A stretch of DNA of 50,187 nt from Spirogloea muscicola (Eukaryota; Streptophyta; Zygnematophyceae; Spirogloeales; Spirogloeaceae). The DNA lies in the NCBI GenBank assembly GCA_009602725.1, contig WELB01000167.1:172521-222707 (forward strand), written 5' to 3'. Shown here one piece after another: positions 4,172 through 28,879 of the stretch. The position numbers and the translations under genes are program-made. Under the pieces are notes generated by a model, which did not search any database, was not told the origin of the DNA, and saw only the letters and a list, made by a program, of their open reading frames with translations. Position 1 is the first letter of the stretch, and every line of letters begins with the position of its first letter.

Positions 4172-4182
4172 GCCTGCGCTTG

Positions 4183-4188
4183 CCGCCT

Positions 4189-4222
<34 letters not shown>

Positions 4223-4223
4223 A
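4183..4223. repeat. (GCC)n triplet array in the eL28 leader
   Basis: This is a near-perfect GCC triplet run directly upstream of the eL28 start codon, so it probably lies in the 5' UTR. Similar arrays lie at the 5' ends of several other genes in the window. Confidence 0.8.
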
Positions 4224-4269
4224 GGCGCCGCAGGCGGGCGCGGGCAGGCTGGCTGCAAACCACCAGCCC

Positions 4270-4305
4270 TAATTCTTAAACCCCGACCCCGCACCCTAAA
4301 CCCCC
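4270..4305. promoter_or_regulatory. Telo-box-like motif upstream of eL28
   Basis: The stretch holds CCCTAAT and, at 4294-4302, CCCTAAACC, about 125 bases upstream of the eL28 ATG. Plant ribosomal protein promoters often carry a telo-box (AAACCCTAA). The match here is partial and short, so the regulatory role is inference. Confidence 0.35.
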
Positions 4306-5941: not shown

Positions 5942-6650
5942 ATGGATGCTGGCCACTCAGTGAAGCTGCTTGCGAGTCGACTTCTAAGCCCAGAAAAACA
6001 CATTTTGATGCATGGCCCTCAGCGGTGATCCTCTGAGTGGCATATGCCCTTAAACCCTGGAATCGGCACCCTCAGTCGTTGCTTTTATACCATGACGCTG
6101 TGCCCAAGCTTTGACTGCGGGCAAGCCACGGCGGCACAATAGCAGTCAGTGCATTTTGGCCTACTTGCTGCACGGATGCCGTTGCTTGACACAGAGCTGG
6201 CGAGGGAAGGCCGCCGTGTTCGCCGTTGTAGGATGCATCCTTAGCCGAGGTGACTGGAACGGGAGACAAGCCATTTAACAGCCAAGCCCGCAAGGACTTC
6301 GCATGCAACGCACAAATGTCTACTGGGGCTACTGGGCGCTACAAAGAGTGGCGGGGCCAGCGGCGGTGTCGACGACGGTGGCAACGGCAGTGGCGGCGGC
6401 CCGTGTGCGGCAGATACAGCACCAGCACCCGCCGAAAGGCGGTGTGGCTCGCCACATTGCCACTCGCGGGTTACGCGTCAGCCACGGCTACCAGCCTGGC
6501 GCCATGGTCACAGTGGCTGCTGCAAAGGCCGCGGCCTCGACAGGGCCACCGGCGGCGGAACCACCTCGACACTGATTTCCCAATGGCACGAGGAAGAGGG
6601 GCAGAGGTGAGGAGGGAGGGAGGAGGAGGGTGGAAGTAGGTGGTGAGCTC
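5942..6650. other. Intergenic, between convergent CRR7 and Alfin-like genes
   Basis: This must hold the 3' ends of two convergent genes. Overlapping open frames in the GC-rich middle have no recognisable protein. Nothing else is seen. Confidence 0.4.
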
Positions 6651-7408
6651 TTAGGTGCGTGCCTTTTTAGCGCATGACGGGCACTTGTAGTGCTTGATGT
6701 GCTCCGCCTTGACGGGCGTGATCTTCACGCACTTGCCGTGGTACCACTTCTCGCAAGCGTCGCAGCTGCGCGGCACAGCCGCAGAGCAGGGTGAAGCCGC
6801 AGTCAGCGCCGCTCTCGTGGCCTGGAAGAGCACCAGAATGGAGACCAAAGAGTTCGCTCACCCAATCCAGAACTCGTTGGCGCCATACGGCCCGCCGCAG
6901 ATGCCGCAGAAGGTGTCGCCGTGCTCTTCGTCCTCCTCCTCTGCATCGTCCTCCTCCTTCGTCGGCTTCGAGCTGGCCTTCCCCTCCCTCTGCGCCAGCC
7001 ATCCGGACGTGCCATCAAACTTCAACAGCTCATCCCCAGACCACCAGGCTGAAACGCACGCTCGTCTTTGGCAAAGTTCGGACGCTCTCCGTCCTTGGTT
7101 GCAGGTACGTCAGCAGCGACAGCGCAAGAGCAGTAGGCGATGCATTTCTGCATCATGCATTGGGCAAACGAGAGGGGAGGGAGAGTGGGCGAGAGAGTCG
7201 AGCGAGCAGGAGTGAGGGAGGAGGGAGAGAAGGAGCAGGGAGGAGGGGGGGAGCCGTCGCACCGCCTTGCCACTGGACTTGGCCTTGCTGTTGTTGGTGG
7301 CCGGCGTGGAGTTGCTCTCCTTTTTGGGCGCCGCAGCCTTCTTCCCCGTCACCACGTCAAACACCGTCGGCAGCTCGTTGATCATCCCGAACAGCCGCTT
7401 CCTGCGAA

Positions 7409-7458
<50 letters not shown>

Positions 7459-7764
7459 GGCAAATCAGCTGAGCAGCCGGCGACCAGGCGCACGACAGCA
7501 CATGACCCGCTGCAGCCATGGCCAAGTGGGCGCCCACTCACCGCTCGGCCTTGTCGAAGCGGGCGCCGTAGTAGAAGGCGACGGCGAGGAGCCAGGCGTC
7601 GGAGTGGACGGCGACGAGGGAGAGCCAGTCCTTGCGCTGCATGCCGTCGCGCGCGAAGTTGATGCCCAGCGCCGGCTCCGGCAGCTCCGGCGGCACCTCC
7701 TCCGCCGGCAGGTTCACCTCCCACGTCTCGTCCGAGTACCCGTAGAGGCAAAGGTTCTCCTTTT
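6651..7764 (-). CDS. Alfin-like (AL) PHD-finger protein, first exon missing
   Basis: Alfin-like proteins are plant nuclear chromatin readers that bind H3K4me3 through a C-terminal PHD finger. Four minus-strand exons join in phase: 7764-7542, 7401-7263, 6989-6862 and 6765-6651. The first gives the AL domain ([47 protein letters not shown]). The second starts [19 protein letters not shown] and continues into a Lys/Ser/Ala linker. The third has an acidic run and the first PHD cysteines (CGICGG). The fourth gives [15 protein letters not shown] and YKCPSC before TAA, completing a C4HC3 finger. The roughly 40 N-terminal residues of the family are absent: upstream there is only a GCC array and the N at 7823. 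Exon 1 probably fell in that gap. Confidence 0.9.
7413..7457. repeat. (CCG)n triplet array in an Alfin-like intron
   Basis: A run of about 15 CCG triplets lies just upstream, in gene direction, of the [12 protein letters not shown] exon. A second run (about 7766-7797) lies next to the N gap. Confidence 0.85.
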
Positions 7765-7822
7765 CTGCGCCGCCGCCGCCGCCGCCGCCGCCGCCCTGCC
7801 GCGCGTCAGGCGGCCGCGGCGT

Positions 7823-7823
7823 N
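7823..7823. other. Assembly gap (single N)
   Basis: A single N sits between a GCC-rich Alfin-like sequence on the left and unrelated, less GC-rich sequence on the right. It coincides with loss of the Alfin-like first exon. It is also the best candidate for one end of a mis-oriented segment (see the NUP188 finding). Confidence 0.8.
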
Positions 7824-9384
7824 CAAGCTTTCGCTTAAATCAAGAGTGACCTTCTGGTATCTGCATAATGGATGCTGGCCACTGCTCAGCTACAACAATT
7901 CCGTGCAAAACTGTTACAAGCAAGTCCTCCTGCACCTGCCATACGTCGTAAAAGCACTGGATACATCGCAGTGTTCATTGGCACCTCTTGATTTTGAGCC
8001 TAATGTGTACCTGGCTAGCTTCTTTGTCTTGGGGAAACCTGCTTGATCACTCTGCTTGACTGCAAGTGCAGTTTTCATCTTGTGCTGACATGCCGCGTCA
8101 CATCACTGAAGTCAGGCAGTCGATGCAGAAGGATGTGTGGCTGCCAAGCTTGAGAGCTACGCCTGGGTTACCTTGTATGAGCACGCAGTGCATAAGAACG
8201 CTGCTTGTCTTACCAGAAATTCAGTCGCGTCATCTGCAAATTAAGCACCAAAAGAGCACCTCAACAAACTAGCCCCTTTCGGCATGCCACGGCTTAGGTG
8301 AACAAATCATCCAATGAAGGCTTTCATCTTGTCTCTAATTTGTCTTGCGCAAGATAGTGGAGAGTGCCAGTCTCACCATAAAGAATGCTGACTTTCCGAC
8401 TGTAGATCAGCACAATGCCCCCTGCAATAAATGACCAAATGACCAATGTGATGAGCATCAAACTATGTCAAATAGCCAGTGAAGCTTACTATTAGTCATC
8501 TACCCATCCTTAGTAAGAAGTAGCAGTCACAGCCTCCTGAGTAAACATGCTCACCCATAAGAATTCCAGACAGTCGCAGTGCAAGGGGCACCTGTGGCCG
8601 AAGTATCTGCATGCTTGACGATTGCAGAATCCATTTCCAAAGTGAGCAGATTTATCTGCACTTTGCTTTGCAATTGCTTGGCAGAATTGGTTGGCAGACT
8701 GCATGCTGCCAAAGCCCACCCCATGGCCAGTCGTATGCACTTTGCACTACAGTCCAAACATATCGGGAATACCAGCTGTCACTGATGTCAATCTGATCTG
8801 CTCTCCTACGGTTGATCTTGGCATGCAAAGTCGCAGCAATCCTGCAATATCGTGCCAAAAAGGCCAGCAGCCCACAAGCTTCAGATATGATTGCGGTCTG
8901 TGAAACAGTGTAATGCAATCACTCCCAAGCAGTCCAGCATCAACAATATTGCACAGCTCTACATTCAGGTCTCATTAATCCTCCCACCAGATTTGGCCAA
9001 GGGGGCCCTTCTTTGACAGGAGCTGGTGTGAGTAGAACATCTTGCTGGTAACTTATACTGCTCGAGAACACCGCTGCAGATGCGCAGTACCAAAGATACT
9101 TGAATCTGGAGTCTAGGGGCATGCTTGCGACACTGCAGAGCAACACGCATGGCGTAGTGAAGCAGGATTGGCAGCTTGCGGCAACGCGACTGCAAGCTTC
9201 AAGTCTAAAAATCGACTTGGCCGTCTCACATGTGGACCTGCGGCAACGAGCTTCTAGTCGGTCTGGCGAGGATGGCGCCGGGGCAGCGCGGAAGAGGCCG
9301 GCGGGCCTGGCCTGCAAGGGGGACCAGGCGTCGGGCTCGAGCGACTGGCGAGGCCGCCGCCGCTGCAATGCCCGTCAGTGTCAG
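7824..9384. other. Unassigned sequence before the NUP188 C-terminal exons
   Basis: I recognise no complete gene here. Compared with plant NUP188, a short stretch of roughly 20-40 residues between the minus-strand part and the plus-strand part is not located, and an exon for it may lie near 9050-9380. Open frames at 8510-8920 on both strands match nothing I know. Confidence 0.4.
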
Positions 9385-12300
9385 GTCAGAGGCCTCCGCC
9401 GGGGGCGCCTCGACCGCCGCCGCCGCCGCCGCCGCCGTGCCGGGATGTGGCCAACCGGCGACCTCGAGGCGTGCCTGGAGGCCACCGCTGCAAGCCTCCG
9501 TCGGCGGCCGCCGCCGCTCGGCGACCCAGCTGGCGCCGCTGCCGCCACTACCGCCGCGGCGCACCAGTGCCGCCTCCTCCTGGTGCTCCTGCGGGCCTGG
9601 CGCGACTCGTTGACCGCTGGCGGCGGCGGGCCGGCGGCGGAGGAGGCCGTTCACCGCGTCTGCCGCCGCGTCGTCGCCACAGCGCTTGCCGGCCTCGCGC
9701 AGCTCCACGAGGGCCATGCCGGGGCGGCGCCCGGCCAGGAGGCCGCCGTGCGGCCCCTCCTCGCGTGCCTCCTCGTCGCGCTGAGCCTCCTCCGTGCCCA
9801 CAACGAGGCGCGCGGCGGCGACCTGGATGCGGCGGCTGAGGACGGCAGCGCAGCATCCTTGGACAGCCAGGATGCCTTTGCTGAGGTAAGCTTGCACCTT
9901 CACAACGTTGTAGCTCAGGCTCACTTCCCGAGGTCCAGCTCCGAAGTCCAATGCCCTGCTTCACCTCCCCTCATCTCGGCGTTCTGCTGGCCCCCATTGA
10001 CGAACGCCACTACCGGCTGTCTGCATTGAGTTCCTGACCATGGTCAATGGTTAGGGTTAGGGCAAGACGGTTAAGGCAAGACGGTTAGGGCAACATCAGG
10101 ATTAGGGCAAGGTTGTGGTTGAGGGTTTAGTGAGGGTCTAGTTAGAACTAGACTGACGGCGCTGCTTGTGTGGAGCGCGCTGGCCAGGTGGCGCTCCTGA
10201 TGCTGGGTGCTCTTCCGGGCCTGTGCCTTTTGGCGGCCGCCAGCGCCAACGCCTGCGGTGACCTGGCGCTCGCCGCCGTGGATGCCACCATCGGCGGCTT
10301 GCTCGCCCCCCCGACGTGGCTCCCAGTCCTTGCCGCCCTTTTCCCGTTCCAGGCGATCCTGGCGCGGCCGTCTGGCGCCACCGCCGTCTTCCTGCGGCTC
10401 TGCCTCACCGTCGTCCAGTCGCAGCGCGGCCTGGAGCTCCTGCTCGATGCTGGCCTGCTGCGGCAACTGACGCGGCCTGCCCACCACCTCGCGGCAGCGG
10501 GCAACAAGAGCAGGAAGTTGGGCGGTGGCGATGGTGGCTCCTCGCCCATTACGGCGGATGCCAAGTGGACCCTGGTTCTCGCCCTCGTGACGGCGGTGCT
10601 GCGGTCGGCGGCTGATGTCAATCAGAGCGCCGACTCCGCCGCCGAGGCCTTTGGCAGTGGCCGCGACAGCATTGTGGAGCAGGCGCTGGACTTCGTGGAG
10701 GAGCACGGGAGCCGGATGCTTGGCGTGCTCGAGCCGCCGGCTAGGTCATGGCAGCGGCAGGCTGCCGTGCCGCGGTCGCTGGGCCTCAACAAGCGGGCCC
10801 GCGCGCAACAGTGCGCGCCCCTCTCGCTGGCCGCCCTCAAGGTTGGCCCCACTCATACGCTCTCAACAGTACAGACCCAATTCCAAACCTCTTCTTCTTC
10901 TTCTGAGAGACCTAACTGATGTTCTTGTTAGCTCCAATTATGTCTTGCTTCAGCCATGAGCTCTTGCGTGCGTCCACTGCAGTCACTTTAGCGTCTCAGA
11001 GCACCTGGACTTCTTTATGTGGAGCTGGGGACTGTGCCCTTGCAGCAGCCAGTTAGCCTAGGCACAGTACAGTGGAGCTTGCTTGGTCATGCATGTCACA
11101 CCCTTGAGGACACCCTGGCCTTGATCGCACTGTCAAGACATCACACTCTGGCCCTGTACTTTGGAAAGGCTTTGTACACACTCACACCCTAATCAAGATT
11201 ACTTACACATGGCCTAGCGTGGATTTCACGTCCTTCACTCTGATACTCCACGGTTGATGTAGCAAAGCTTGGACGGTCAAGCAGCAGCTGTTGGTGCTGA
11301 CTCAGGCCCGCCGGTTTGGTTAAGATCGCAGGAGGTGGAGCATGTGCTGATGCTGCTGGTTGAGCTCGCACGCTGGAGCGGCCGCTGGGCACGGCGCCTT
11401 CCGGGTCTGGTGCCGGCTTTTGCCGAAGCAGCAGCGCGCCACCTGGCATTCATTGCACGGGAGGGCGCACTATGGCTCGCCGATGCTCCGCCGTCGGGCA
11501 GCGGCCTGGACCTGCCCTTTCGCAGCTCGCCAGAGTCAGCGGTGGAGCGCGCAGGGGTAGCGAGCCCGGCAGCAATTGGCAGCACTCGGGGCTGGTTTGC
11601 GCTTGCAGCGCACGCCTGTGCCGACCTGGCGCTGCCACCGCTGGCTGCGGCAAACGGGCCACCTTCGCAAGGCGGAACAGCTGCTGCTGCTGGTGATGTC
11701 CTTCCAAGCAAGCTGGCACTGGGCGCCGTTGCGGTTGAGGGCTTACCCTGTCGCCCTAGCGGTTACAGCGAAGAGTTGGCCATGGCAGTGTACAAGACCG
11801 CTGGCTGCGCCTTGCGGTTCACTTGCGAGCTCATCATGCAGGCCATTGGCCCTGTCGGTGGCGCCCCAGTCGACTGTCGCTTGCTGCCCGACATGCCGTC
11901 TCCGGAGATACTGCACAGCCTGCAGGTCCGCTCCCCAGCCCTATCAAGTGCACCTCTTATTCCAACTCTGACTGGTCGAGTCCATCTCATTCACATGCTC
12001 AAGCATGGTGATGTTGAGTGCACTGAAGCTGTCCGTGGCCTTGTACACTCTGGTGCCGCTTGGTCTCTCCATGTTCCACCTTCTTGGGCCAGCTGCAGAG
12101 TAATTGCAGCTGCAGAGTAGACACATTATCTAGGCCCATACATTCTGAAGCTGGTCCTTTGAAGCAGAGCCAGTGGCACATACTCTGCGTGGCAGTGATG
12201 AGTCACAGCCCAAAATCGTCCTCATTTTTTCCACCTCCGATCCTGACCGTCAAATTCTGCGGTGCACTTATGAGCTACCCTTTACTGTATCATGCAGCAA

Positions 12301-13013
12301 ATACTCCACGAGATAGTAAGTGGTTGAAGTCCAGCGGACCCACTTCACAGACCCACAGTTCGGGTGTTTGCGTGATTGTGGCCTTGCAGGAACAGGGTAT
12401 AGTCATCTTGACCGAGCTGCTGTCGAGCGGACGGCGCGGGCCACAGATCGACGAGGCCTGCCGCCTGCTCCTGTCTATTGTGGATCAGGCACTCCTCGTT
12501 GAGGCCTGCATTGTCAGGGCATGCGGTGTGCCGCCGTCCCCCATCCACACGGACCTCTTCATCAAGGGTTTGCAGCCCCTGCAAGCAGGTCAGCGTGCTT
12601 CCATTAGGTGCTACATCCGAGGTCATCATATCTGGATTGCACCAATACATGCCATGGGCTACGTTGCAATACTCTGCTCATGTAAGAGTTATATGAGGGC
12701 CAGCCTGAACATGTGACTGTGACCGCTTGATCAGCAGGCAACCAAGAGATTTGCACATTGTTTGAGTATTTATGTATCTTGTACCTGGCATGCTCCCAAG
12801 TTACCCTCAGTAAATGGGTGTAGCCTCAGCGAGGTTAGAGGCTGGTGTTACGTGGAACTTGCGTGGTACGCCCAGAGGCAGTGCTACAGCCAAAGTTAAC
12901 CGTCAGGGCTGCTGGCTCTTATGTCATCAGCTGTGCAGAAGGAGGGGAGGCTGGAGCCGTTGCTTCTGGAGCTGCAGACGTCCGCTCTGTTGGTACACGC
13001 GTCCCTCACCTGA
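9385..13013 (+). CDS. NUP188: Nuclear pore protein NUP188, C-terminal part
   Basis: NUP188 is a large alpha-solenoid scaffold protein of the nuclear pore inner ring. Five plus-strand exons are seen: about 9385-9885 (start unsure), 10152-10841, 11332-11925, 12390-12588 and 12931-13013. Phases agree and the frame ends at TGA. Stretches fit the plant protein in order: VDATIGGLL, LRLCLTVVQSQRGLELLLDA, WTLVLALVTAVLRS, VEHVLMLLVELA, HLAFIAREGALW, RGWFALAAHA, MPSPEILHSLQ, VILTELL. No start codon or N-terminal domain belongs to this piece: it begins in the middle of the family protein. The rest of the protein is on the opposite strand at 17537-28879. Donors after 10841 (GTTGGC) and 11925 (GTCCGC) are weak. 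The first exon is unusually rich in Ala and Arg because of a CCG run. Confidence 0.82.
10049..10113. repeat. Degenerate 14-base telomere-like minisatellite
   Basis: Units of the form GGTTAGGGCAAGAC repeat with changes inside the first NUP188 intron of the C-terminal part. They contain TTAGGG words, including GGTTAGGGTTAGGG at the left end. About four to five units are visible. Confidence 0.7.
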
Positions 13014-13299
13014 CCAGACTGCCTTTGGTGGAGCCAAAAGCGAAGCTTATGGTGTTTGGACATTGCGCACATTGCGCCTCATTCTTTTGGATGCTGTGAG
13101 GACTCAAGTCCACCTGATATGTTCACGCCTCCATGCTGGCACACATCGCAATTCGGCGGGGATGCTTGCAATGCGCAGTTGCACCTCAAGACGTGGGAGA
13201 AGCATTTCACATACTGGATTCGTATTCGAATTTGGAACCTTCAAGCCTGCACTGCATAGGCAGGCGAGTATAAGTACAGGTTGGGATTGACTTGACGAC

Positions 13300-13790
13300 G
13301 CTAGGAGGAAGAAAAGGCACTGCTCTCACAATGGCTGTGAGAGGCCGGCGCAAACGAAATGAACAAGGTCTGGAATAAAGAAACAGCTCCTCTAATGTAA
13401 CGCAATGGCTGTGTGAAAGCAAGATCATCCGAAGGGGGCGAGGGCTGCGAAAAGCCAGCCCGAAAGGAATGGACAAGGGGCCGGCAAGAGCTGAAACCCA
13501 CAACTAAGCAAGTACTACAAAGAGCAATCGCGGCCAGATTAACTGGTGGCTGGGAGAGGCCAGCCCAAAGGAATGGACAAGGTCTGAAGGAGCCGGAGTG
13601 CTAAGGGCTGGCCTCTCCCATAGCCTCTTCAGGCCCCGCAGTCGCTGCTTAGCTCGTAGTTTGGCCCCTTCGAACCTTGTCAATTCTTTTCGGGCTGGCT
13701 TCTCACAGCCCTTGCCCCCTTTGGGAGAGCCACTTCTCCCAGCCACCAGTTAATCTGGCCGCGCTTGCTCTAAGGACTGAGACAGAGGAT
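13300..13790. mobile_element. Retrotransposon 3' tails, two orientations
   Basis: The left half is in minus orientation (about 13300-13600). It holds the reverse complements of the GGGCTGGC tail and of the ACCAGTTAATCTGGCCGC end. The right half (about 13605-13790) is in plus orientation and closely matches the tail at 49395-49575, including the words CCTCTTCAGGCCCCGCAGTC and CTGCTTAGCTCGTA. No ORF part is kept. The inverted arrangement lies between NUP188 and the processing peptidase gene, so it is a possible rearrangement or misassembly point. Confidence 0.7.
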
Positions 13791-14182
13791 GGTCACCTAG
13801 AGGCCCTCTAGTCAAGAAGAAACAGCTCTCAGTGGCAGCCGCATGTCAGATAGAGCAGCAGTCTGAGAGAGCCGGAGGAAAGCCAATTTGGGACTGTCGG
13901 CTGGCGTCATCGGGGGTGACGCTGGCAGGACCCGCAGGCACGGAATCCGGTCGGGCAGCGGGCGGGGGGCTTGCCGGAGCCGTCGGATCCGCAAGGGCCT
14001 TGTGAACGGCTCCGATCCCGGACACGAGCTTGATCCAATGGCGTGCCGGCGGGGTGCATCCGACGGCCCGTGGCCCATCCCGGCAACCTAACGGGGGCGG
14101 GCAGCGCCGTCAGCGCACCCAGCGCGCCACCGTTTTAGATCCCCTCCGGCCTCCCTGCCGCCAGTGCCAGCCCGCTGGCTCT

Positions 14183-14222
<40 letters not shown>

Positions 14223-14354
14223 GAGAGCCCGCTGCCTCGCCGCGGCGCCGCGGCCTGCCGCTGGTGGAGGCCCCGCGATGGCTTTTACGGCGGCGGCCCT
14301 GGTGTTCGGTGCCTCCTGATCTGGCTCTCGCGTGTAGTAGGCCGCACCCTCGCC
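13791..14354. promoter_or_regulatory. Upstream region of the processing peptidase gene
   Basis: This GC-rich stretch precedes the start at 14355 and carries a (CCG)n array at about 14185-14221. It should hold the promoter and 5' UTR. I see no TATA box at a convincing place. Confidence 0.35.
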
Positions 14355-16715
14355 ATGGCCCTCCGCGCGCCCCTCGCGCCCTGCCGCCGCCATTGCCCCG
14401 CCTCTCCGCCGCCTCCTCCGCGAGCTCCGCTGCCGCCGCCGCCGCCGCTCCGCAGCAGCGCCGCCGGGAGCTGTAGACGCAGCCATGGTGTAGCGCACCC
14501 CCGCCACCCCGTGTGCCGCCAGCCATGGCCGTCCTCCACCGCCACCCCGCCTCCCTCCTCCGCTCCGCTTGCCGCCGTTCGCCAGCAGTCGACTGCGGCG
14601 CTTGGATCCTGTCGACAGCCGCCGCTGCCGAAGCTCGCCACCAGCATCACAGCGCGGGAGCGCAGGCTTCCGGCGTGTGCCAGCGGCAGTCTGCGGCGAG
14701 CGCCGCGGTCGTCACCGACGCCGTCGCCGCCGAGCTTGGAGGGCAGCCAGATGGCATTCCTCTTCTTCAGGTCGCAGCGACGCCCACCGCAGCCGCAGGT
14801 CACTGTCGCCGCCATGTGGGGTGCCTCCGCCCTCCTATGGCCGCTGCGGCAGTGGCTCCCCGCTGGCTCGGCGGAGCCCGATGCGGCGAACCAGCACTGG
14901 ACGCCGTCGGCTGCTGGCCGGCGTGGCCTGGTTGCGCCGGACCTCCGACGGGCTCCTCGGTCCTGCCAAGCGGGGGCCGGGCCGGAGCCCGCCGCCGGAT
15001 ATAAGCGTGACGGTGGCGCTCTGGCCGAGGAGGAACGCTTGGCTGCTGTAGCCAAGCGGCCTGCGGAGCTCGGCGGAGCGGGCTGCGGCGGCGTTGGCAA
15101 TGCCAACTCCGAGATGCCGATCTCAGAGAGCGGCGAGCGTAGCAGCCCAGAGGCTGGGAGCGACGGCGGCTCTGGCGACCGTCCCAGCTGGCTGCCAAGC
15201 TGGCTCAGCCTCACGAGCGATGACGGTCGCACGGTGATCGCGGCATTCGTCTTCTCGCTCCTCTTCCGCTGGCTCATCGCTGAGCCGCGCTTCATCCCAT
15301 CCCTCTCCATGTACCCCACCTTCGAAGTTGGCGATCGCATCATCGCCGAGAAGGTGAGGATGGGCAGCAGTGCTTTGGCAATGTAGTCTCGGCGATGGCG
15401 TGACTCACATTGTCTCTGCATTTAGTATGGCTGATGAGAGGCTCTGGCAATGGTTGCTGCTGCAATGGCGGCAGGTCTCCTATCACTTCCGCAACCCGGA
15501 CATAAATGACATTATCATCTTCAAGGCCCCAAAGGTGTTGCAGGTAAGCAGGACTGTAGCAGCAGTTCCTCCTCCCCCATTCTCCTCCCTCTTCCCTTTC
15601 TGCGCCACCCATCCCTGTGGTGTCTGCTGACTGGCAGCTGCCTTAAGTGCCTCTGCAGACCATTGGCTCTGGTCCATCAGCCGTCAGCCTTATTGACCTG
15701 CCGCTTGGGCTGCCGCTTGGGGTGCCGCTTCCGGCGGGCAGGACCGGGGCTACGATTCCAGCGAGGTTTTTATCAAGCGGGTTGTGGCCAAGGCGGGGGA
15801 CCTTGTGGAGGTAAGCTGCCGGGTGTCTTGACTGCGACTGCATGACTTCTCTACCAAGCCGCCTGACTGCAGACAGCATAACTCGTGCTTGCTGGCTCGC
15901 GCTCTTGCTAGCTCACCACGTCGCTCAATGGCGGCGGCATATGTCAGGTGCATGGCGGCAAGCTGCTGGTAAACGGCGTGGCCAAGGACGAGGACTTCAT
16001 CTTTGAGGCGCCGACGTACGACATGGGCGTGGTGGTACGTGCTTCATTCCTTTCTAAGAGCAGAGACAGCTCGTCCTTTATCCAGGAGAAAAGCCTTCAA
16101 GGCTTCCAAGGCCTTCAAGGCTTCCAAGGCTAGAAGAGGGCACAGTGCTATAATGTGCCAATGTAGTATTGTAGCACTCTTTGGCGCCAGAATCATGGTC
16201 AAAGAGGTGAGCCTAAAGACTATGTCTTAGAACAGGCAATTGAGCAGGTGTTTAGACTTGATGGGCTGGTGTGATGTTTTTCTGAGTGCAGCATGTCCCA
16301 GCCGGGCACGTGTTTGTAATGGGCGACAATCGCAACAATAGCTATGATTCCCACGTCTGGTAATCACTTTACCCCCACACTTATCCAATCGCAGGTTTGC
16401 TATGGATTGAGGGGATGATATCGAAGAGCGCCAGCAGCCCTTGGCTTCGGGTGCATCTGGGTCTGCCAGCCAGCATGCACATGTCCTTGGAGGAGTGACT
16501 TACATGCACTAGTGTTGCTGATGACTCTCATCTTGATTGGTTTCATCTAAGTGGTCAACCTTCAATTCTTGCTCTTGTGAAGGGGTCCGTTGCCGGCCAA
16601 GAATATTCTTGGCCGGTCAGTGGTACGCTACTGGCCAGTCAATCGCCTCGGCTCCACCGTCACAGACTTGCACCCTGCCGAGTTGCCCCAGCTGGTGACA
16701 GATGCAATTGCATGA
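14355..16715 (+). CDS. TPP: Thylakoidal processing peptidase (type I signal peptidase)
   Basis: This membrane-bound Ser/Lys peptidase removes thylakoid-transfer signals from lumenal proteins in the chloroplast. Six exons join in phase: 14355-15353, 15475-15543, 15742-15810, 15948-16034, 16292-16359 and 16583-16715 (TGA), giving 474 residues. A membrane segment ([18 protein letters not shown]) precedes the catalytic box PSLSMYPTF with nucleophile Ser318. The general-base Lys is in [11 protein letters not shown] (Lys368). Box E is [18 protein letters not shown] from residue 418. The end is [12 protein letters not shown] plus a short tail. The first roughly 280 residues are a low-complexity, Ala/Pro/Arg/Ser-rich region, far longer than a normal transit peptide plus linker. 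An inner ATG in frame at about 14750 could be an alternative start. The gene lies between the two opposed halves of NUP188. Confidence 0.9.
16093..16130. repeat. 18-base tandem repeat in a peptidase intron
   Basis: The unit CCTTCAAGGCTTCCAAGG occurs twice in a row, just after a related partial unit, in the intron following exon 4 of the processing peptidase. Confidence 0.75.
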
Positions 16716-17536
16716 ACGGAAGGCGGCTCAGGAAGCTGGAAATTGTGGCAAAGGGCAACAATTGCCAAGCAGCCCCATGGCAGTCTCTTGTACTCAACGC
16801 AGGCACACTTATGTAGCCATGGACTGGGCATGCACGTGGCGCCCTCAGAGCTCAACGGCAGATTCTTGTTCTCAGATCATGAGATATGTCCATGGCTTGT
16901 GGACACGACATGGCCCACTAGGAGGAGCACCAGGGGCCAGTCTGGGGTCCTGGCACTCCAACTTCACTTTGACCACTGGGCGGTAGTCACAATGCAGGCG
17001 GTGTGATGTGAATTTGCAACTCGCATTGAGGATTGTGAGAGATGCAGATACCTCTCAGGCGCTTAGCAACATCGCCGCATGTGTGCATATTGCCAATAGT
17101 GGCAGCACACAACAGAGGGCAGTATTCATCAGGGACTACAATCCTGACAATGGCCTCTGGCCGACCGGGCAGGTTACCTACTGGGCAGCGCGCCATCGCG
17201 CCACCCTCCCTGGAACATATAATTGGACCACCTTTGGCACTTGTAAGCCGAGTGCCACAGCTTGCATGCTGCAGCGTAGGCCATGCAAGCTTATTTAACA
17301 TTGGCAAAGGCAACTGGTCGCCTGGGACTGGAGAGTGGCAAACTTTGTAGTGGCAAATTTGAGTACCAAGTACAGCTGCATTGCTAGGCAGCTGATCATA
17401 GTGACATCATTCTTTTCCAAGATATTATTGAAGAGCATGATACTGTCTTGCGAATATGATGGTCTTGACTGTCAGTTGTGTGTCAGAAGTTGCCATCCTT
17501 CACATTGTTTGCAGCCGCATTAGCGAAACAGCGAGG
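16716..17536. other. Intergenic, processing peptidase to NUP188 N-terminal part
   Basis: No gene is recognised. If the NUP188 split is an assembly or genomic inversion, one junction may lie here, because the last minus-strand NUP188 exon ends at about 17537 and nothing matching its continuation follows on the minus strand. Confidence 0.4.
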
Positions 17537-20500
17537 AGGTCTGTCCAGGATGCAAGCACACGTTGCCGGGCGGCCGCGAGCGAGGCCGTTGAGGTCGCCA
17601 GCCGGAAGCCCTGCAGTGCTGCCTCAGTGTGCTGCCGCTGCAGGGAGTCGGGCCACCATTCCATGCCAAGCGCCCTGGCAGACAAGCAGCAGAAGTCGAA
17701 GCACGCATTGAAACGATGTAAGCTGAATCAAAGTCAGCTTGACTGCATGCCTGACTTCAAGCCCTACCTCCAGAGAGTAGTTTGCATTCCCCGTACCTTT
17801 CAAGGAGCGTGCAGGGCCAGCTGGCATCAACGCCGTCATTGAGCTGCAGCGCCGGTGCCCCAACCCTCAGGAGCTCCTCCGGCTGCAGGGACACCACAAC
17901 TTCCAGTAGCCGGCGAAACGAACCCGCCGGCACGACGCGCCCGTCCTCCAACTCTCCAGTCAGGTGCTGATAGAGGTCGTTCACAATCAGCGCTTGCAGG
18001 TCCTCGTCCCGCCTGCAAAGACATATAGTACGGAGCCTGATGAGGCTATAGCCTACTGGTGGAGCTCAACCTCACTTCTGCAATGTCGGGCATCGGCAAC
18101 TGCAAGGCCCAACATAGAAATTGGCTGTCGGCAAGCTTGCCAAAGTTTGCCTCAAACTTGCCAGGCAAGCGCGACCTGTAATTTGGTGCATTGGCTCACT
18201 TTCAGAGAAGCTGGCTAGTTGGCATCAACCAAGATGCAAGCGGAGAAAGAGCTGATGTTTGAGCTATGCACTGAGCTTAAACTGGAGAAGAACAAGTCGG
18301 TCATAAGAAACGGAACAGCAGGCAGGGGAGCTGACGACCTTCACGACGCTGTTGGACTAGGAGTGCTCACCCATATGCACGATACTGCTGCAGGAGCTCC
18401 TTGGCGTCAGGTGACAGAAATAGCTGCATGAGAGACACGGAGTCACTCAGATCTGCTGTACATGTTACACCCTTGTCTATGTTGCAGGGACAAACATGTC
18501 CTATGTGTGCCTTTTCGAGTTGCTCATCTTAGCAGTATGTCACCAGGCTGTATCCATAAGATAGGGTAGGTAAGGCCGTGCCAAATCTGGCTGCCGCTTG
18601 AGACAATGACAGCCTTAGGACATTCATTCTGAGAAAGTCGTTTCCCTGTTTGCCGACATGGCAAAACCCCTCATTACTTCACTCATGTCCACTAAGGCAA
18701 CTTGACAAGCTCATGGGCGTCCGAATGGCACCTTTGCCGCAACTCCTTGTACACAAGCCACGAGGTTCTCATCAAGGCCATCCTTGTCGTCCTCCAGCAC
18801 CTTGCTCACGAGCCCAACAAGCACAAGCTGGGAGTACTTCTGCAAACAGCCACAGCACACTTCACTGCCAATGCTGCCATTGTCCTGCAACAATCATAGT
18901 CTTATCAGGCACTGTCTCGCCAATATGTCATCTGCAATGCCCTCGCAAGCCGGCCGAATTTCAAGAAGCTTACATACACCTCTTTCTTATGACACCCACA
19001 ATCTGATTGGGTAGGCCACTACCTTGCTCTGGTGAAAGATGTCAGCATGATCATCCTGCACCTCAGCGAACCTCGCCGTGGCTGCCTGGGGCCCCGTACC
19101 CGCCAGCTTGTGCCAGTCGCGCAGCACCTGCAGCGCACCCGACTGCCCAACAGCCCTGGAGGTATCACCATTGCACGTCGCCGACTCGGCTGGCACCAGC
19201 AGCCGAGCCTGCAGGAAGACGTCGAGCACCATGAGCTGGAAGGCCAAGGCTTCGCACGTCAGATGCAGCGCCTCCTTCTCCATCTCCTGCACTCACAAAC
19301 ATCACCAGCTAGAGGCACTTAGACCTCGGTATGACGGTGTTCAACATGACGAAAATTGCATTGCTCGTCCCAGACTGACATCCATCTGATCAAGTTGATT
19401 ACAATTTGCTGGCAGCAACAGCTATGCACTGAGAATGGTCTCAAAAACCAAGCACCTAGCATGACAATCAGGGATTATTGCGCTAGAATCAGGTCTTGAG
19501 CAGTCGACTCACCTCACAGCTCTTTGCCACCTGCATGCTCTTATCATCAGCGTCAGCAGACAATGACGGAGCATTGACGGCTCTGGAAGATGTGAAGAGG
19601 CTGGCCGTGGCAGTCAGCCAGAAAGTTGGCTTGGTGAGCAGCCACTGAACAACACTGTAGCAACCCACAGGCTCGTTCCAGATGCGGACGAGCAGGGTGA
19701 GCACCCTGGCCAGCACCTCGCCCAAGTCACTGCAGAATGACTAACGAGAGAATGATCTACATGGTAATATATCCATGACTCAAGCAAATTAATAGTCAAA
19801 ATACTCCTACACCAACGTTTGCCGCTCCTGATTCGGAAATTTCCAAACATCCTGTTCACACTCGGCTGGCTTACACAGCCGCCTCATCATATCAGCAGCC
19901 GCTACCACGTGATGCTATTGTCCTAAGGGGCCCAACTTGTTGGGCATCACTGTGACATTGATTTAGGCACCTTGAATGCATCCAAGCTAAAATGTAGGAC
20001 ATGCCAGGAATAGAGACCTTGCCAAGAGCACAGCGGACTGCTGGACCAGCGCCCAGAGCGCCTCCAGACCCTTGCCCTCACCCAAGTTGTCCTCCTTGTC
20101 ACTGTTACACCTGGACGGGTCTGGGGGCGAGAGGAAGAAGTCCACCAAGGCTGGCTGAACAAGTGCAGTCAGAGTCTTATGATCAGCAAACCGCTGCATG
20201 CTGCTTTGCCTGAAATCTGATGTTCTGTTTGAGGCGTTCTGCAATAGTATACAACATAAGCAAAAATACAAGCAGAAGGAAAGATTGGTACCTGCCCGGG
20301 AACAGCATCAATGAGGAGGTCCAAAGCTGCCAGTGTCAGATCCGGGTACGCTGCCGCTACGTCCTTGGCCAGAAGCCCAGCAAAATAGCTGCTCAAGTGC
20401 GCCACCTGTGAGGTCCACCATATATTTGAATCCAGCATCCACTACCATAATCAGCCTGGAGGATGGCATCCCCAGAGGCAAACAGGGAGCAACATATTTC

Positions 20501-23500
20501 GGTCTTTGTACTGACCACAGTTGCACTGACCATAGTCGATCATTTGGGTACCTGACTGCTGTCAGGAGAAGCGATGGAGAGGCTGACGGGCATGGGCAGC
20601 TTGGAAAGCGCCTGCAGTGCTCGCAAGCTGGCCTTCTGCATGCTCTGCATCCGACGATCCACAAGAAACAGCCATGACACACAAGTATTAGGTGCTTGCA
20701 GGCTTGAATCTTCTTATAGCAACTATATTAGCTGCTGATGGCAGCTTTCAATTGTGGGTGCTGTCAAACTGTCCACTGAGATTATGAGCCTGTTGAGCAT
20801 GCCCTTTCCGTCTGACAGTAATCTGCTCTGACCATTTCTACATGTGTAGACGAACCTGGTTGCGCTCACACTTGAGCAGGGACGCGATGGGCCCGACCAC
20901 TGCACCCTTGTGCAGCATCTCTGCCAAGGAGGCATGTGCCTGTTTTTCCAATAACAAACCGATGTGAATTGACTTTGACAACAAGCTCCAAGGCTTCACT
21001 GGGAGGAGATGCAATAACAAGAAGAACTGATGTGAAAGTGCAACTGAGTTTCTGGAGGGCAATTCTGAAGAGGATTGGTGCCATTTGCAATATGGGCAGG
21101 GGACTTTGCAGCTCACTGTAGCTGGCCTGCTACTGCACACTGCCTCAATGAGATTGTGCAGGAGGGCTAGCGAGCAGAGCAACGCCTCCTCAAAGGCACC
21201 ACTCTCCTTCCTCCCAACTGCGGGGTCCGACTGGAACTTCTGCACCAGCACAAGAAGCTTGTCAATGCTCATACAAAAATTGCTCGCATAGTGCCCATCC
21301 AGTAAGCTTGCTCCAGCACTGTTAGGGCTTGATGACTCTAGATTGCAATCAGGAAGGAAGCAACACCTCTGCAAGTACTACTAGGAGCTACTACAACACG
21401 AAATGTATCTTGGCACGATTCTTCATACATTGACAGGCTGTTGGGGTGAGAGGTGCAGAGCTTCTAGTATGAGCAATTGTGGCAAATCGCATCCACCAGG
21501 CCTGCTGCATAGAATTCTGTTGTGAATGAGGATTGCAGAAAGTTGACCTCGAGTATGGGCATTGGAACTTCGGGTGCCTACCTGCAGAGCTGAGAAGTCG
21601 ACCACAAGGAGGCGAAAAAGGGCTCCTTGAAGTCCAGAGTCTGTCAGTAGCATCTTCAAGACCGGTGAGCAGATCAGGTCATCTCTTTGGTTGGGCACTT
21701 GTTGCCTGGCAGTCCAGCTGACCCGCGAAAGTGCGGCCATAATTGCTCTCATTGCCTGCAGATGTACATTGCACAAATCATCAGTCCTTGATACCTGCCA
21801 GTATGTGCAAACCTCATCAGATCCAAGTGTACTGATTACTTGTATTGCAATCCAATGATTGTAAACATGAGATTCAGCATCTAGGTGAATAGTAAGATTG
21901 AGTACTCTGAGTTGTAGTCCGTGCCACAGATGCAACAAGCAATAAATGCCTGTATTGCTGAGATCGAAGCAGACTGGTAGGTACCTTAGCGACGACCTGC
22001 CAACGCTGCACCCGGTCGTTGTATCGCCACGTCGCAGCATGCTCCAGAACATGGAGGGCCAGCTGGCGCAGCAGGCTGACTACCCACTCCGAGGTTGATC
22101 CCTTCTCAATCAGAACTTGCAACAACGCAAGAACTGCGGGCGATGGGCTGTTACTTACACATCAAAGACTACCAAGCAACAGAGGTGGGATGCCTAAACA
22201 AGCTCGCAACTGTTGATTAACAGGCATTGACTGCCAAGAGCAATATTTTGTGAAGCGACTATGAGATTTGGATCACCTGAGAGCGTGAGATCATACTCTC
22301 CAGCAGCCTGCTCGCCTCTGAGCAGCTGCTGAAGCATTGCCCCCCCAGCACTGCATCAAATATGCGATTAGATGACTACAATAAGATATGCAGTGGGTGT
22401 GACACTGTGGCTCCACCTTGCAAATACATAGACTCCTTAGCACACAGTGACGAACAAAGGAGCTTGTAGGCCAACCCCGTCAAGAAATCAAGGGGAATGT
22501 TGAGGACTACTCAGCCTGCCAATCGCTTGAAATAGTAATGAGCTACTTGATATCTGAGCAAGTATGTAGACCAAAACAAGGCCCAGATTGAGCATATTGC
22601 AAAGGTTGCTCACCCAGCACTATCCTGCTCTGACAGTGGGCTGCTCTGCAACTCTTTCAAGACCGATCCAGGGCAACTGTGGCAAAGGCACACATGACGA
22701 TGAGCACCAGGCCTCAACTCAATGCAAAGAAGGAATGCGAATACAGCAGAATCGAGCTCAGAATTAATGTAGGAGGTGTAACTCCATCAGCAAATCATGA
22801 TACTCAACGTAGGCATCCCTACCAGTGTGCGATGTGGGCAAGATTCGCAGTCACCAATGCCAATGTAGCAGCATCAGCTTGGCTTCTTGACAGCTGCCTC
22901 ACTAATATCCCTAGGAAGGGGATGAGCTCCATTCTGCACATAGTCACAGAACAAGCTATGAGTATGGTCCAATGACACGAATTTGATACCTCTCCTTTAG
23001 CACACCAGGTGACTTACTTAGTCACAAGCTGGCAGACTATATTCCGTCATTTGGATGATGCTGGAAGCTGTCCCAGCAACATGTCGCGATGACCATGCTT
23101 ATGTCGACAGGCTGATAGCAGGGTCGAAGAAGCAACCTGGTTGCAAATTGTTGTACCTGGCGGTGGGCTGCATTCGTCCATGCGATCGCTCAGCAGCAAC
23201 GCTTGGGTCCCGATCTACTGCCAGCAAGACTTGTACAAGCTTCTGCACATCAAGCGGAGAGGACCCGATACAACCTGGTCATACATCTGTCTTGTGCTTT
23301 GCCTTTCTTTAGGTGTTTACAACACAGCAAAATTTAAGTACCAGTCCATCTTTCAGACTTGTGGCCTATTCATGGAGGTCGTGTGACCTCAGGCTTACCC
23401 TGTTGGAAGTGAGAATGCGATCAACGAGCAGCAGCAGGAGCCGTATCTCTCTCCTCTGACTCTTGGTTGCATTCCCGAGATTTGAAGCCACCGTCGCGCA

Positions 23501-26500
23501 TCGCAGCATCAGGACAACGATGCAGACATGCTGAGCCTGCAGATGCGGGCCACAACCCAGAGATGCTGCATGGCTGAGGTCGGACTCAAAGCATGATGAG
23601 CAGCATGGTGGCAGCGAATTCCAGCAGTGTAAGTTGCAGTAAGTCAAGGGAATGCCTTGTTTCACTCGCCCAGATCAACATATGTCAGCACACCCCAAGG
23701 CTGCAGTGAAGACTTGGTGACGAGTATTGGCGGTTACGCTGTTCTGTCTCCTCAAAGACTGACCTCCCAGCGAACAAGTGCCTCGCTGCTGTCCAAAAAC
23801 TTCACAATCTGGCCTCTGGTGCCGGCTGGGGCACGAAGCATGGGAGCCAGAGGGACGGGGACCCCGTCGCCAGCAGCCTCCACTTCGCTGCCCACCTCCT
23901 CGGGTGACTGCGCTGTCTCCGCCGAGAGCTGGTAGGGCGTGGCCACGTGCACAGGCCGAAGGACATACGCGCACCTGAGCAGCAATGGGTCCAATGACAA
24001 CCATTGTTGGGGGTCTGCCGCACAGCTCACAGGAAGGTCGTCTGCATTGGAGGCCCGAAGGCCTTGCATCTGGCTGGCGACAGCATCTAATACAATTGAG
24101 TGAATATGCTGTCGTCTTTGTGCTCAATGATGACGTCAATGGCTTCTGTGTTCGGATAGGTATGCCGTGTTTGCAGTCTATCAGTGAATTGTTGATCAAA
24201 GTACAAGCAATTCACAAGATATGATTTCTTAGGAACTGAACAGTAGTCCTCAGCAGGAGCGCCCGGCAAGGGTGACCCGGCCTAGATGCAAACATTGCTA
24301 GCCTCAGACAACAGTGACCTGCTCCTAAGGTTTCCTTACACGCATTCTGCAGGCCAATGTCCCTCAGACAGTGATGATAGGAAGCGCAGGAGGAGGTCCG
24401 CATTGTCAGGGAACACGTCGAGAAGCGCCGAGAGGAGCGCTCGAATGGGTGCGTCCAGCAACTTGCGGCTGTCCCAGAAGTCGCAGCACAAGTCAGCCTG
24501 CTCGCACCAGCAAGAATATTGCTCAGCAATACAACATGTACGATCAAGGTGCGCAAGTCTCAGCAGAGAGCTGCTCAATGACGTTGTACCTTCAAAAGAA
24601 CTCAACTTGCACAAACACATCCATGCCACTCTCACACATTAATTCTCCAGCGACAAGCTTCCGCAACCAAGCTCTTTTTTAGCTTATAGAGTGCATGGCA
24701 CATAAGTAAACAAAAATAGACCGCCTGACCTCGCCAGCATAGATTTCACTGAGGATGTCGACGACCACTCGAATTTCATCCAAGTTGACCTGGGGCGTAG
24801 GGGGTTAAGATCAGCGGCGACTTCAGTGAAGCTGAACTACGAGGGCTAAGTACAAATTGCCTGTATGCCTTGTAGTAAAGCATCGGGAGTGAATGTTTTC
24901 CCATGCAGCCCTTCAGCATCTTATATGTTGCAAGTTTGAAGAACCACCAAATGATGTACCTGGTTTTTCACCTCAAAGGTTGCGAGGAAGGCACCTATGA
25001 GCATCTTCAAGATCCTCTTATACTCCCCGCTGTCCAACTGCGCCAGTATTTGCAGACAAGCGCATACGCAGTTGCTTGTGCCATGAAAACGGCACTGGCG
25101 GCAGAAATATCCTAATGTAGCAACGGTTGTAGAGCCTTCGACTATATGAAGAGCCCACAACAGGTTGTCCTGTTGTAGGCTCTGGCCTCTGGAGAAAGTG
25201 CCTCTGGAGCTCCCAAACATCACTGTTCCCACTTAATGCTTATTCACTCACTGTACTTCGAAGTCTTACCAAGAACTGAAGCAATTAAGGGTCTGCCCTT
25301 CAACGAAGAAGTCAAACCTGGACCTTAATCCTAGGCTCCTGGACCCTGACGCAAGGCTGCTAACTCTACTCGTGAGCCCAGTGCCTGACCTCGGGGTTCT
25401 GGCAGGTTGAGCTCTGCAGGAGGCCAAGGATGTAGGCAAAGGCACGTCCCTGATGAGCCCTCCACATGGTCTCGGCGGGATCTGCGAGCTGCCAAAGATG
25501 GCGTCAGCATCTGAGGCCAAAACCCAGCATTTATCGAAGGTAAGTAGCTGGCAACCCGCTTCTTCACCGGAAGATTGTCACGTACGAGCGCCAGCTAGGA
25601 TGCATCCATGAAGAAAGACCATGGCTGGCATTACTCTTCGATTTCAGTACAAGGGGGTTGGTTACATCGTGGAGGCAAGAGAGTTCGGGGCTGACCTGGA
25701 GGGGGCAGCTGGAAGCGTGCGGAGGCAGCGCAGCGAGGAGCGAGGAGAAGGATGCCCAGGCCAGCAGCAGCGGCGCAGTCTCTGGGTGCTGGCGCGGGTC
25801 TGACTCCACGATTGCTGCACCCAGCTGGCTCACGTCCTCAACACCCAGATGATGGGCTCCCTGGCTGCAAGCGGAGGAGAAACCCAGGTGTCCTTCATGA
25901 GAAGTGCTTGTTGAAAGCTAGAGGCACATGAGTAGAGCGTATGATTGTATACCAACAAGAGGCTACCGCCCAAGCTGGATTGGATGCATTCACCCTTCCT
26001 GTCTCTGTAACAATTCAATCATGCAATCTGCATCTTCTAAGGTGGTGATGGACAGAAGAAAATGGACTTCATACGTGAAGGCCGGTGTTCCAGCCTGGAG
26101 CATGGCAAGGAGGCCCTCAAGATGCAGCCCATCGATCAGCAAGAGCAAGGCCAGGTTGCGTGCCCGCTGGCGGTCGCCAGTGTCAATGGCTGGCAGGAAA
26201 AGGTGTTTCTGCACCATCCCACGTCAAGAACGAAGCTGACAAACACCATGCCATGTGCTTTGCGAAGCTGAGGGTATTGCAAGCGGCAGCAGCGCTAGAC
26301 ATCCCAGCAGACTGCTAAATAGTGTCAATCTAGTGCTAGCAGTACGTGTAAGCTCAAACCTGGAAAACTTGGTGGAGGTCCAAGAACGCGGCAGCTGTGA
26401 GCTTGTCAGCGCTGGGGGGCACAGAGTGGAGCGTCAGGAGCAGGTCCAGAAGGAGCACAAGCTCAGCATCCCATTGCTGCTGCCACGCCTCCGCCTCACC

Positions 26501-28879
26501 ATGCACCTGGCCAAAGATCATTTAATGCGGTTTCCAACTTAGGGTGCAAGTCCAGGCTTCTTATACACTGTAAACGAGGTGAGCAATTTCTATCATGGTG
26601 CCACCTGCAGCAGGGCCACTCCAGCTTTTGAAAGCTCTGAAGCTGTGTGAGTTCAGGAGGGTATTTCCTCAAATCAATGGCTTTTGGCCTTTTGAAGTGT
26701 ACGTAAGGTATGCTTCTGTCATCATCTTGACCTTAGGACTTTAAAGGGCTCATGATGTGCAAGGGTTCTGGAGTTGTGCCAAGCACTGCGACAAGGTGGT
26801 AAGACAGCCAATGACTTCATAGCTTGTGCCCTATATGAGCAGCTAGCTGAGGAGTAGCTATTTGGCATGCTTCTGAGGTCACATTGCAGTGCTCAAGTGA
26901 ATGAAGAGTGTACTTTAGTAAACAAGGTACAGGCATCTTAGTGAGTCTGGAAGCATGCAAGGGGGAGAACGAGATGGCTTTCTTCCAGAAAGAGGTAGAG
27001 GTGGTATGAAATTGATCCTTAGCACAACTGAGCATGTTAATCTGCACATGGTATCTATAGAATTAGCTTCAGAATCTTAGCTTTCTTGCTTTCTGGGCTA
27101 TTATAAGGCCTGCAGCAGAAGCAGCAAGATGGACTCTGGAAGCCCACCAGGTGCTTCGATGCTTTGCCAGTGAGCTGGCGCACAACCAGATAGACAACAT
27201 TGGCCGCCAGGACCTGCTGCACAAGCTCAGCCGCTTCTTGGACCACCTTTGAGAGCGCATCATCTCCTCCGAAGTAGCCATCACCCTCTGCCTCCACCAA
27301 CATCCTTATGTTACTGTGACAACTCAGCATTGTTGGTGCGGCCCAGGGCGGTGATGCCTGCGCATGCCTGCTTCGTCAAATATGGGTCTGGCTTTCAAAG
27401 CTTTTGTGTGGGCTGGCGGAACCCAAAGCTGTGAAGTTTGCATCTCCAACCTCTGTTGTCGGCCAGCGTACTGGCAGATGACATACCTGGCCGGAGCATG
27501 ATCAGAAGTCGGACGCACTTGAGGAGACACTGGCGCTCTTCAAAGTAGAGACTAATGGCCTGGCACGAGAAGCAAAGATTAAGGAGATTTGATGGATGTG
27601 ATGCAACCAAGGGTCTGTCAACAAGTTGAAGGCAAGGACGAGAGAAACCGATATGGCTAAGAACCTACAAGGTCAGGCCTCTCACTCAGCAGTAACTGCT
27701 GCTTGCAAGGAAGGCTGCAGAGCGGGTGTGCTGACATTCGACAATATAGTCACTAGGATCATAGGGAGTTTGGGGGTTTCAGAATCACAATAAGAAGTAT
27801 TTGTGATGTCGGCCACCTTCTGCAGGACAGCGGTGTCATCATCAACGCCACCTCGGCCGGCAGGGGCGGCGGTGCGGGAGATAAGCAGGTAGGCTTGCAC
27901 CTCGTCCAGGAGCTGCACAATGTCAGCAGCATGCCCACATTAGCATTGTGGCCAAATGGCACAGCTTTGCATATTGAGTGCAACCTTGAGACCGCTGTGA
28001 TGCCACTAGAGAGCTCTGGCGACTTGCATCCATGATGAACAGATTCTTAATGGACAAGAGGATCAGAGGGGTTACAAAATATGTGAAAGTTTAGGGCTAA
28101 AGCAAGCATTACAGGCAAAGCTAGTGAAGCGGGTCTGCAGGGCTTAGCTTAGGCTCCATGCCAGAGTAAGAGTGGGCCATTTCTAATGGGCCAATACTGA
28201 CCAGGTAATCGCTGGCCTTTAGCGCAGAGGCGCGAAGCGCAGGGTCAACCTTGAGCTCCTGACTGCCTAGCTGCACAGACGTGCCCTCAAGCGCTACCCG
28301 AGAGCTACTGCTGGGCGACAGGAAACCATCGAGCGTGGCCAAGAGCCAGTGGCGGTGCTCGCCCAGGCTCTCAGCCTGCCGCAGGTGATTGCAGGCGCCA
28401 GGAGGATGCAGGACGTCAGGTAACACAACTCTTAGGCTCTTGATTTACACCTGGCCTTAAATCCTAGACCTTCGACCGAACCCTAGCTCCTACACCTTGA
28501 TCAGCTTGACGCGTTCAAGAAAATCAAAAGACAATGTCCAATCTGCATTGTTAGATGGTATTGAGGTGGGGGCCCAGGGGCTGGTGGCAACAATGCAAGC
28601 AACGATGGCCTGGGCGCAGCCTACCAGCTCTGATGCTCGCCTCCTGAGCAGAACCTCTCGGGCCTGCTGGAGTGCCGCAGGCTTCTGGGCGCCCTCACGG
28701 CGTGCGTTGTCCTCTGCTGCTGCGCAAAGACCGTCCAGCGAAGCTAGAAGGCCGCTAAAGGGGTCCCACCACAACTTGGCATCGGCTGCCGCCCGGCTGC
28801 AGCTCGTGGCCAGAGCGTGGGCAGGTGCAGCACCGGCTGCCGGGGAGCCTGATCCTGCAACTGTGGCGGCCACCGCCAT
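17537..28879 (-). CDS. NUP188: Nuclear pore protein NUP188, N-terminal and middle part
   Basis: This is the scaffold nucleoporin of the pore inner ring. The minus-strand ATG at 28879 opens exon 28879-28625 (85 codons; KLWWDPFSGLLASLDGL). Then come 28375-28202 (EHRHWLLATLDGFL), 27912-27817 and 27559-27487 (FEERQCLLKCVRLLI). Further exon cores, less exactly bounded, are near 27300-27100, 26515-26365, 26217-26080, 25860-25690 (APLLLAWASF), 25490-25390, 25050-24950, 24790-24725, 24505-24336 (LSSLSEGHWPAECV), 24090-23770 (GTRGQIVKFLDSSEALVRWE), 23500-23395, 22350-22270, 22140-22005 (TWRYNDRVQRW), 21760-21595, 21290-21130, 20945-20860, 20650-20560, 20420-20290, 20160-20000, 19735-19505, 19290-19025, 18890-18700, 18015-17805 (DLYQHLTGELEDGR) and 17700-17537. 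Order matches plant NUP188 throughout. The last quarter of the protein is missing here and is found on the plus strand at 9385-13013. Confidence 0.85.

Follow-up and report, generated by a model that had tools for sequence, protein, structure and literature searches.

In a 50,187-nucleotide stretch of Spirogloea muscicola DNA (the window; contig WELB01000167.1, hereafter C167, positions 172521 to 222707, in an assembly of 153 Mb and 471 contigs), the nucleoporin NUP188 is encoded in two parts on opposite strands, and each of the three versions of this locus in the assembly shows the same division. We consider it probable that an inversion of ~8 kb in the ancestor of these three copies divided NUP188 between two genes and that the two products pair in the nuclear pore. 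The first-pass annotation had favoured a scaffolding error as the cause of the split and had ranked a genuine inversion that divided the gene as less likely. On the sequence comparisons presented here the order is reversed, and a real, old split appears more likely than an assembly mistake because the same cut recurs in each version, the search for an intact gene found none and constraint acts on both halves.

Two genes for successive parts of NUP188

Coding segments were taken from the substitution patterns among the three copies of the locus, and exon models were built with a dynamic-programming script at an intron cost of -3 for the minus-strand gene (NUP188a) and -4.5 for the plus-strand gene (NUP188b). 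The resulting features, in window positions, were as follows.

17500..28879, minus strand: NUP188a, the N-terminal ~two thirds of NUP188; 30 exons, 1369 amino acids (aa); ATG at 28879, TGA at 17502-17500
17500..17674, minus strand: last exon of NUP188a, ending ...WTDLLAVSL(M/T)RLQT(M/K/N)-stop across the three copies
9445..13013, plus strand: NUP188b, the C-terminal ~one third of NUP188; 5 exons, 656 aa, with ATG and stop
9445-9885, 10188-10841, 11332-11925, 12390-12588, 12931-13013, plus strand: NUP188b exons (exon model)

At intron costs of -1, -2, -3, -4.5 and -6, the models contained 42, 37, 30, 29 and 27 exons for NUP188a and 9, 6, 6, 5 and 5 exons for NUP188b, respectively; the last small exons of NUP188b varied, and its start and stop were unchanged at all five costs. 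Exon-finder scores were 304 for NUP188a and 153 for NUP188b, as against 33 and 40 for the opposite strand of the same stretches. When left unconstrained from 9413 on, the finder selected the ATG at 9445 for NUP188b, and the start at ~9385 proposed earlier was abandoned, as that position falls in foreign sequence (7824-9437). The end of the minus-strand gene was moved from ~17537 to the in-frame TGA at 17502-17500. Single-exon Pfam scans gave no nucleoporin, and spliced models were needed.

Both products matched the same chain when searched with phmmer against Protein Data Bank (PDB) sequences. This chain, 9sob_B, is named 'Nucleoporin (DUF3414)' and is 1965 aa long. The alignment of NUP188a, in two stretches, covers residues 35-1274 (E 8e-91) and that of NUP188b covers residues 1486-1958 (E 3.3e-29), so that the two opposite-strand parts are collinear and non-overlapping, as had been proposed from the letters of the window. 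The next-best PDB match of NUP188a had an E of 0.24, NUP188b had no further PDB match up to E 10, and no Nup192/205 chain was found for either product up to E 10; the first 198 residues of NUP188b alone found nothing with phmmer. Pfam matches of NUP188a were PF11894 (3.7e-12) and PF21093, Nup188 N-terminal subdomain III (3.1e-7), of which the former is the Nup192/205 family and covers residues 70-205 with the better E-value. NUP188b had no Pfam match above a cut-off, and PF10487 was uninformative, with no match in the genome or in the controls. Taken together, the matches identify the pair as NUP188 rather than Nup192/205, with predicted homology that spans most of a known NUP188.

The ...APAGTRGQIVKFLDSSEALVRWE region of NUP188a aligns to 9sob_B and is a candidate SH3-like insertion in the N-terminal half. 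Arabidopsis NUP188 we take to be At4g38760. The candidate SH3-like assignment leans on excerpts of PMC3679522 and PMC9061825. The search tool names no organism for 9sob_B; we infer that it is Arabidopsis NUP188 from an excerpt of PMC12626886, where NUP188 is F4JUG3_ARATH, together with its length.

The halves sum to 2025 aa, compared with 1965 aa in 9sob_B, and the break lies ~68% along the protein. At the seam, ~82 + 143 residues (about 225) stand in place of about 211 in 9sob_B, and this segment does not align to 9sob_B, even with the halves joined. The expectation that the plus-strand half resumes at nearly the next residue was thus borne out in length but not residue by residue. The geometry was right, in that inverting one segment yields a continuous minus-strand NUP188. 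9sob_B is homologous along both halves and is one polypeptide, whereas two opposite-strand genes were found here at 3/3 loci; we therefore name this a split NUP188 and not an ordinary member.

The same arrangement in three copies

An exon of the plus-strand part was present at three places in the assembly (100, 95 and 94% identity). Window positions 9413-29843 aligned to contig C184 at 84-89% identity and positions 9537-25644 to contig C239 at 81-87%, with order and strands kept in both, and the C239 copy was carried on by contig C52 from 25651 onward. We read C167, C184 and C239 plus C52 as three homeologous copies, named W (the window), A and B, respectively; the synonymous divergence (dS) among their NUP188 genes was 0.13-0.16. 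At each of the three loci a signal-peptidase gene separates the two halves, which are on opposite strands. A protein search of the whole assembly returned 50 matches for NUP188a, all on C167, C184, C239 or C52, and 15 for NUP188b, all on C167, C184 or C239. A second, intact NUP188, which the first-pass annotation had held would turn both parts into remnants, was not found in this search, in which 34/83 first-look candidates for NUP188a and 16/16 candidates for NUP188b were scored and some stretches of the assembly stood as N.

Constraint on both halves

Complete frames with start and stop were obtained for both genes in copies W and A, to which the models were fitted. In copy A, 30/30 NUP188a exons and 5/5 NUP188b exons were in frame, with GT/AG splice sites and no internal stop; in copy B, 29/30 and 4/5 exons, respectively, mapped cleanly, exon 1 of NUP188b running past the contig end. 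Ratios of nonsynonymous to synonymous substitution (dN/dS; W-A, W-B and A-B) were 0.296, 0.290 and 0.282 for NUP188a (1367, 1369 and 1367 codons; copy B insert set aside) and 0.276, 0.314 and 0.283 for NUP188b (655, 509 and 508 codons; exon 1 left out for copy B). Because all three copies, and their conservation, were used in choosing the exons, the clean copy A frames and the low dN/dS are partly built in, and control models on the wrong strand gave a similar proportion of synonymous changes (synonymous/nonsynonymous 54/42 and 29/32, versus 129/125 and 52/47 for the gene strands).

Since this control weakened the dN/dS test, a comparison with introns was added, using exons of at least 130 bases (16/30 of NUP188a, 4/5 of NUP188b). 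NUP188a introns differed by 0.191 (W-A) and 0.200 (W-B), and its codon positions 1/2/3 by 0.058/0.050/0.111 and 0.061/0.052/0.113, respectively. For NUP188b the introns differed by 0.119 (W-A) and 0.147 (W-B), and codon positions 1/2/3 by 0.051/0.028/0.104 and 0.063/0.032/0.115. In each half, change at codon positions 1 and 2 was thus two to five times slower than in introns, which points to purifying selection on both halves. The slow change at these positions argues against the idea that the two parts are remnants in decay, left from a NUP188 that is no longer needed, as do the open frames and splice sites in NUP188a of copies W and A and in every mappable NUP188b exon. That a translocation-like junction and a 1556-base insert interrupt the copy B NUP188a would fit decay, yet set against this evidence we regard decay as very unlikely.

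Gene ends and possible trans-splicing

The NUP188a stop lies at the identical place in 3/3 copies, and the NUP188b ATG is present in W and A, the 2/3 copies that reach the start. Downstream of the stops, TGTAA motifs and AATAAA-like signals were inconsistent between copies, and they are for that reason no evidence on separate 3' ends. One could suppose that the two opposite-strand pre-mRNAs are trans-spliced into one full-length NUP188 mRNA, with the arrangement kept in all three copies. The halves complement each other, with little sequence lost or shared, which would suit such a process; the last exon of NUP188a is weakly constrained, and a GT after 17562 occurs in all three copies and serves as donor in the low-cost models. 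The in-frame stop present in every copy speaks against such splicing; a GT that overlaps it occurs in the window and C184 but not in C239, and the NUP188b ATG stands right behind a CGG repeat with no AG in between. Nuclear trans-splicing across opposite strands for one housekeeping protein is also rare. Because the stop and the start are shared among the copies, we judge trans-splicing unlikely and favour two separate genes.

Junctions around the proposed inverted segment

The features that flank and separate the two NUP188 genes were as follows.

7823, no strand: single N joining two assembly pieces
7824..9437, plus strand: chimeric segment, a copy of C196:26047-27660 foreign to this locus
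9413..9437, plus strand: CGG/CGC repeat immediately 5' of the NUP188b ATG
13397..13814, no strand: dispersed repeats separating NUP188b from the peptidase gene; the alternative right breakpoint of the first-pass annotation
14355..16715, plus strand: signal peptidase I gene, between both NUP188 genes and tail-to-tail with NUP188a; exon model, start codon approximate
16716..17499, no strand: intergenic stretch from the peptidase stop to the NUP188a stop; the right breakpoint previously called simplest

The two right-hand intervals proposed earlier as misjoins (16716-17537 and 13300-13790) were both found to be gap-free in the window and C239, and the first in C184 as well. The intergenic stretch 16716-17499 lies inside continuous alignments to C184 (window 16233-22490) and C239 (window 13815-21126) and is collinear without N in all three copies, which contradicts a flip at 16716-17537. 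The window is free of N over 7824-33917, as is C239 over 155315-178790, where the contig ends; both candidate breakpoints lie in gap-free sequence in the two, which align to each other at ~81-87%. Repeats at 13397-13814 occur, among the matches listed, on ~30 contigs. Within them, 13523-13814 is an extra dispersed repeat in W, in place of which C239 has 155 bases (flanks 174793/174637), and the link between NUP188b and the peptidase gene is therefore independent of one repeat copy.

At the left edge, the suspicion raised by the N at 7823 proved justified, in that the next 1614 bases (7824-9437) are 99.9% identical to C196:26047-27660; identity to contigs C9 and C67 is 85-86%, and C196, C9 and C67 are collinear to either side of that segment. 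The assembly breaks at the CGG/CGC repeat or just inside NUP188b exon 1 in all three copies: at the repeat the window switches to foreign DNA and C184 begins after a long N run, and C239 ends at a point matching window position 9537. Because the window joins foreign DNA at this repeat, sequence left of 9413 is untrustworthy as a neighbour of NUP188b.

An assembly error in all copies would mean that NUP188 is in truth one gene and that the NUP188b block was flipped via the 13300-13815 repeats and the CGG repeat. At the left edge, the N gap and the chimeric segment would accord with such an error, as would the repeats at the NUP188b-peptidase junction and the N at C184:198392 within it. The same false join would, however, be needed separately in two gap-free contigs that are ~15% diverged, and the true single gene would require a ~4 kb intron with an antisense peptidase gene inside it and would have to skip the stop of 3/3 copies. 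We accordingly think it improbable that the assembly created the split.

Several observations nevertheless weigh against an old split into two working genes, beyond the wrong-strand control and the fitted models described above. In copy A the link between NUP188b and the peptidase gene crosses the single N at C184:198392, leaving it gap-free in two copies only, and from C184:198393 to ~199500 the sequence is identical to copy B before it regains its own divergence. This assembly error is, to judge from the pattern of identity, a haplotype switch at a contig end, and because of it copy A is not independent for this link. The upstream flank of NUP188b is missing or wrong in 3/3 copies, in W through the chimeric segment, and the whole-assembly search for NUP188a scored fewer than half of its first-look candidates. 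The last exon of NUP188a changes fast (synonymous/nonsynonymous codon changes 6/9, 4/11 and 4/6 for the three pairs), and at intron costs of -1 and -2 the end of the gene shifts and the GT after 17562 is taken as donor, so that the exact NUP188a C-terminus is uncertain. Finally, exon 20 of NUP188a in copy B carries the 1556-base insert, and this copy of the gene is divided in intron 8, with exons 1-8 on C52 and exons 9-30 on C239.

The copy B junctions lie at C239:161217/161218 and C52:124726/124727, corresponding to window positions 25644-25651. The sequences beyond both junctions are adjacent, within a few bases, in contigs C10 (152717/152720) and C162 (149365/149368), and the break has the appearance of a balanced reciprocal translocation confined to copy B. 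An assembly error may instead be the cause, since an N lies ~315 bases past the C52 junction and further Ns lie ~280-300 bases past the matching point in C10 and C162. The insert (C239:165792-167347) has no similarity to the window, and in the rest of the C239 sequence retrieved it has a single match of 33 bases.

Proposed origin and function of the split NUP188

Before the event, an intact minus-strand NUP188 would have been followed by the peptidase gene. The proposed inversion, from ~9413 to ~17500 in the ancestor of the three copies, would have had one breakpoint inside NUP188, ~two thirds along the protein, and the other just 3' of the signal-peptidase gene. NUP188a (1369 aa) would then be the 5' part with an acquired stop, and NUP188b (656 aa) the 3' part, which would have acquired an ATG and presumably a promoter. 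Most likely two separate mRNAs and proteins would be produced, and the two helical-solenoid pieces may stack non-covalently in the inner ring and together serve as a single NUP188 does elsewhere. Fission of genes through small inversions is a general evolutionary mechanism, and the case described here resembles it in that both halves are retained and constrained.

Fungal Nup188 offers a parallel for such pairing. According to excerpts of PMC3679522, one of its two crystallised fragments ends at residue 1160 and the other begins at residue 1445 of 1827, a helical segment connects them, and the protease-cut protein runs like the full-length protein in gel filtration. Those fragments (1-1160 and 1445-1827) share with the present genes two separately folding parts and a cut in the middle helical segment, but they are laboratory fragments in vitro, whereas the gene is naturally split here. 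Since the fungal fragments flank a helical segment and the cut protein behaves like the intact one, end-to-end stacking of two proteins is plausible; by proportion, the split site may be the counterpart of the fungal connecting segment. NUP188 is reported to be present in the Chlamydomonas genome (PMC6006428) and is described as present in Arabidopsis (PMC12626886), and the excerpts of these two papers mention no split in either; the likeness to Chlamydomonas is the presence of NUP188 in a green alga. No report of a split NUP188, or of such fission in a scaffold nucleoporin, was listed by searches of the open-licence PMC literature.

Nup188 is among the largest and oldest nuclear pore scaffold proteins, and a lineage that permanently encodes it in two genes would amount to a split-protein experiment performed by nature. 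If the split is as proposed, the solenoid need not be covalently continuous, a site that tolerates a break is marked, and N- and C-terminal functions could be removed separately. Automatic annotation may call NUP188 truncated or missing here.

Neighbouring sequence and genome structure

Assignment of the gene between the two halves was based on Pfam PF10502 (8.4e-5, just above its cut-off) and TIGR02227 (3.3e-5, below its cut-off), and exon modelling was unsuccessful at 2/5 starts tried. Around this locus, CGG repeats or single Ns are the site of several contig ends or switches. Positions 7410-7796 are 99.7% identical to C197:189710-190096, after which C197 enters N at its own CGG repeat, and they are probably another contig-end duplicate or chimera.

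The threefold pattern seen for NUP188 was also found at C196/C9/C67 and at C10/C162/(C239 plus C52). Against genome DNA, window positions 3600-7380 gave two short matches only (72 and 53 bases, on C275), unlike 9413-36500. Three sets of loci, each with three diverged copies, suggest a triploid or hybrid genome, in which 3600-7380 would be without counterparts. Dispersed repeat families, direct and inverted, occupy 1-2953, 49221-50187 and 13397-13793, one family occurring on at least ~30 other contigs, and the outermost 81 bases at either end of the window are 99% identical to each other.

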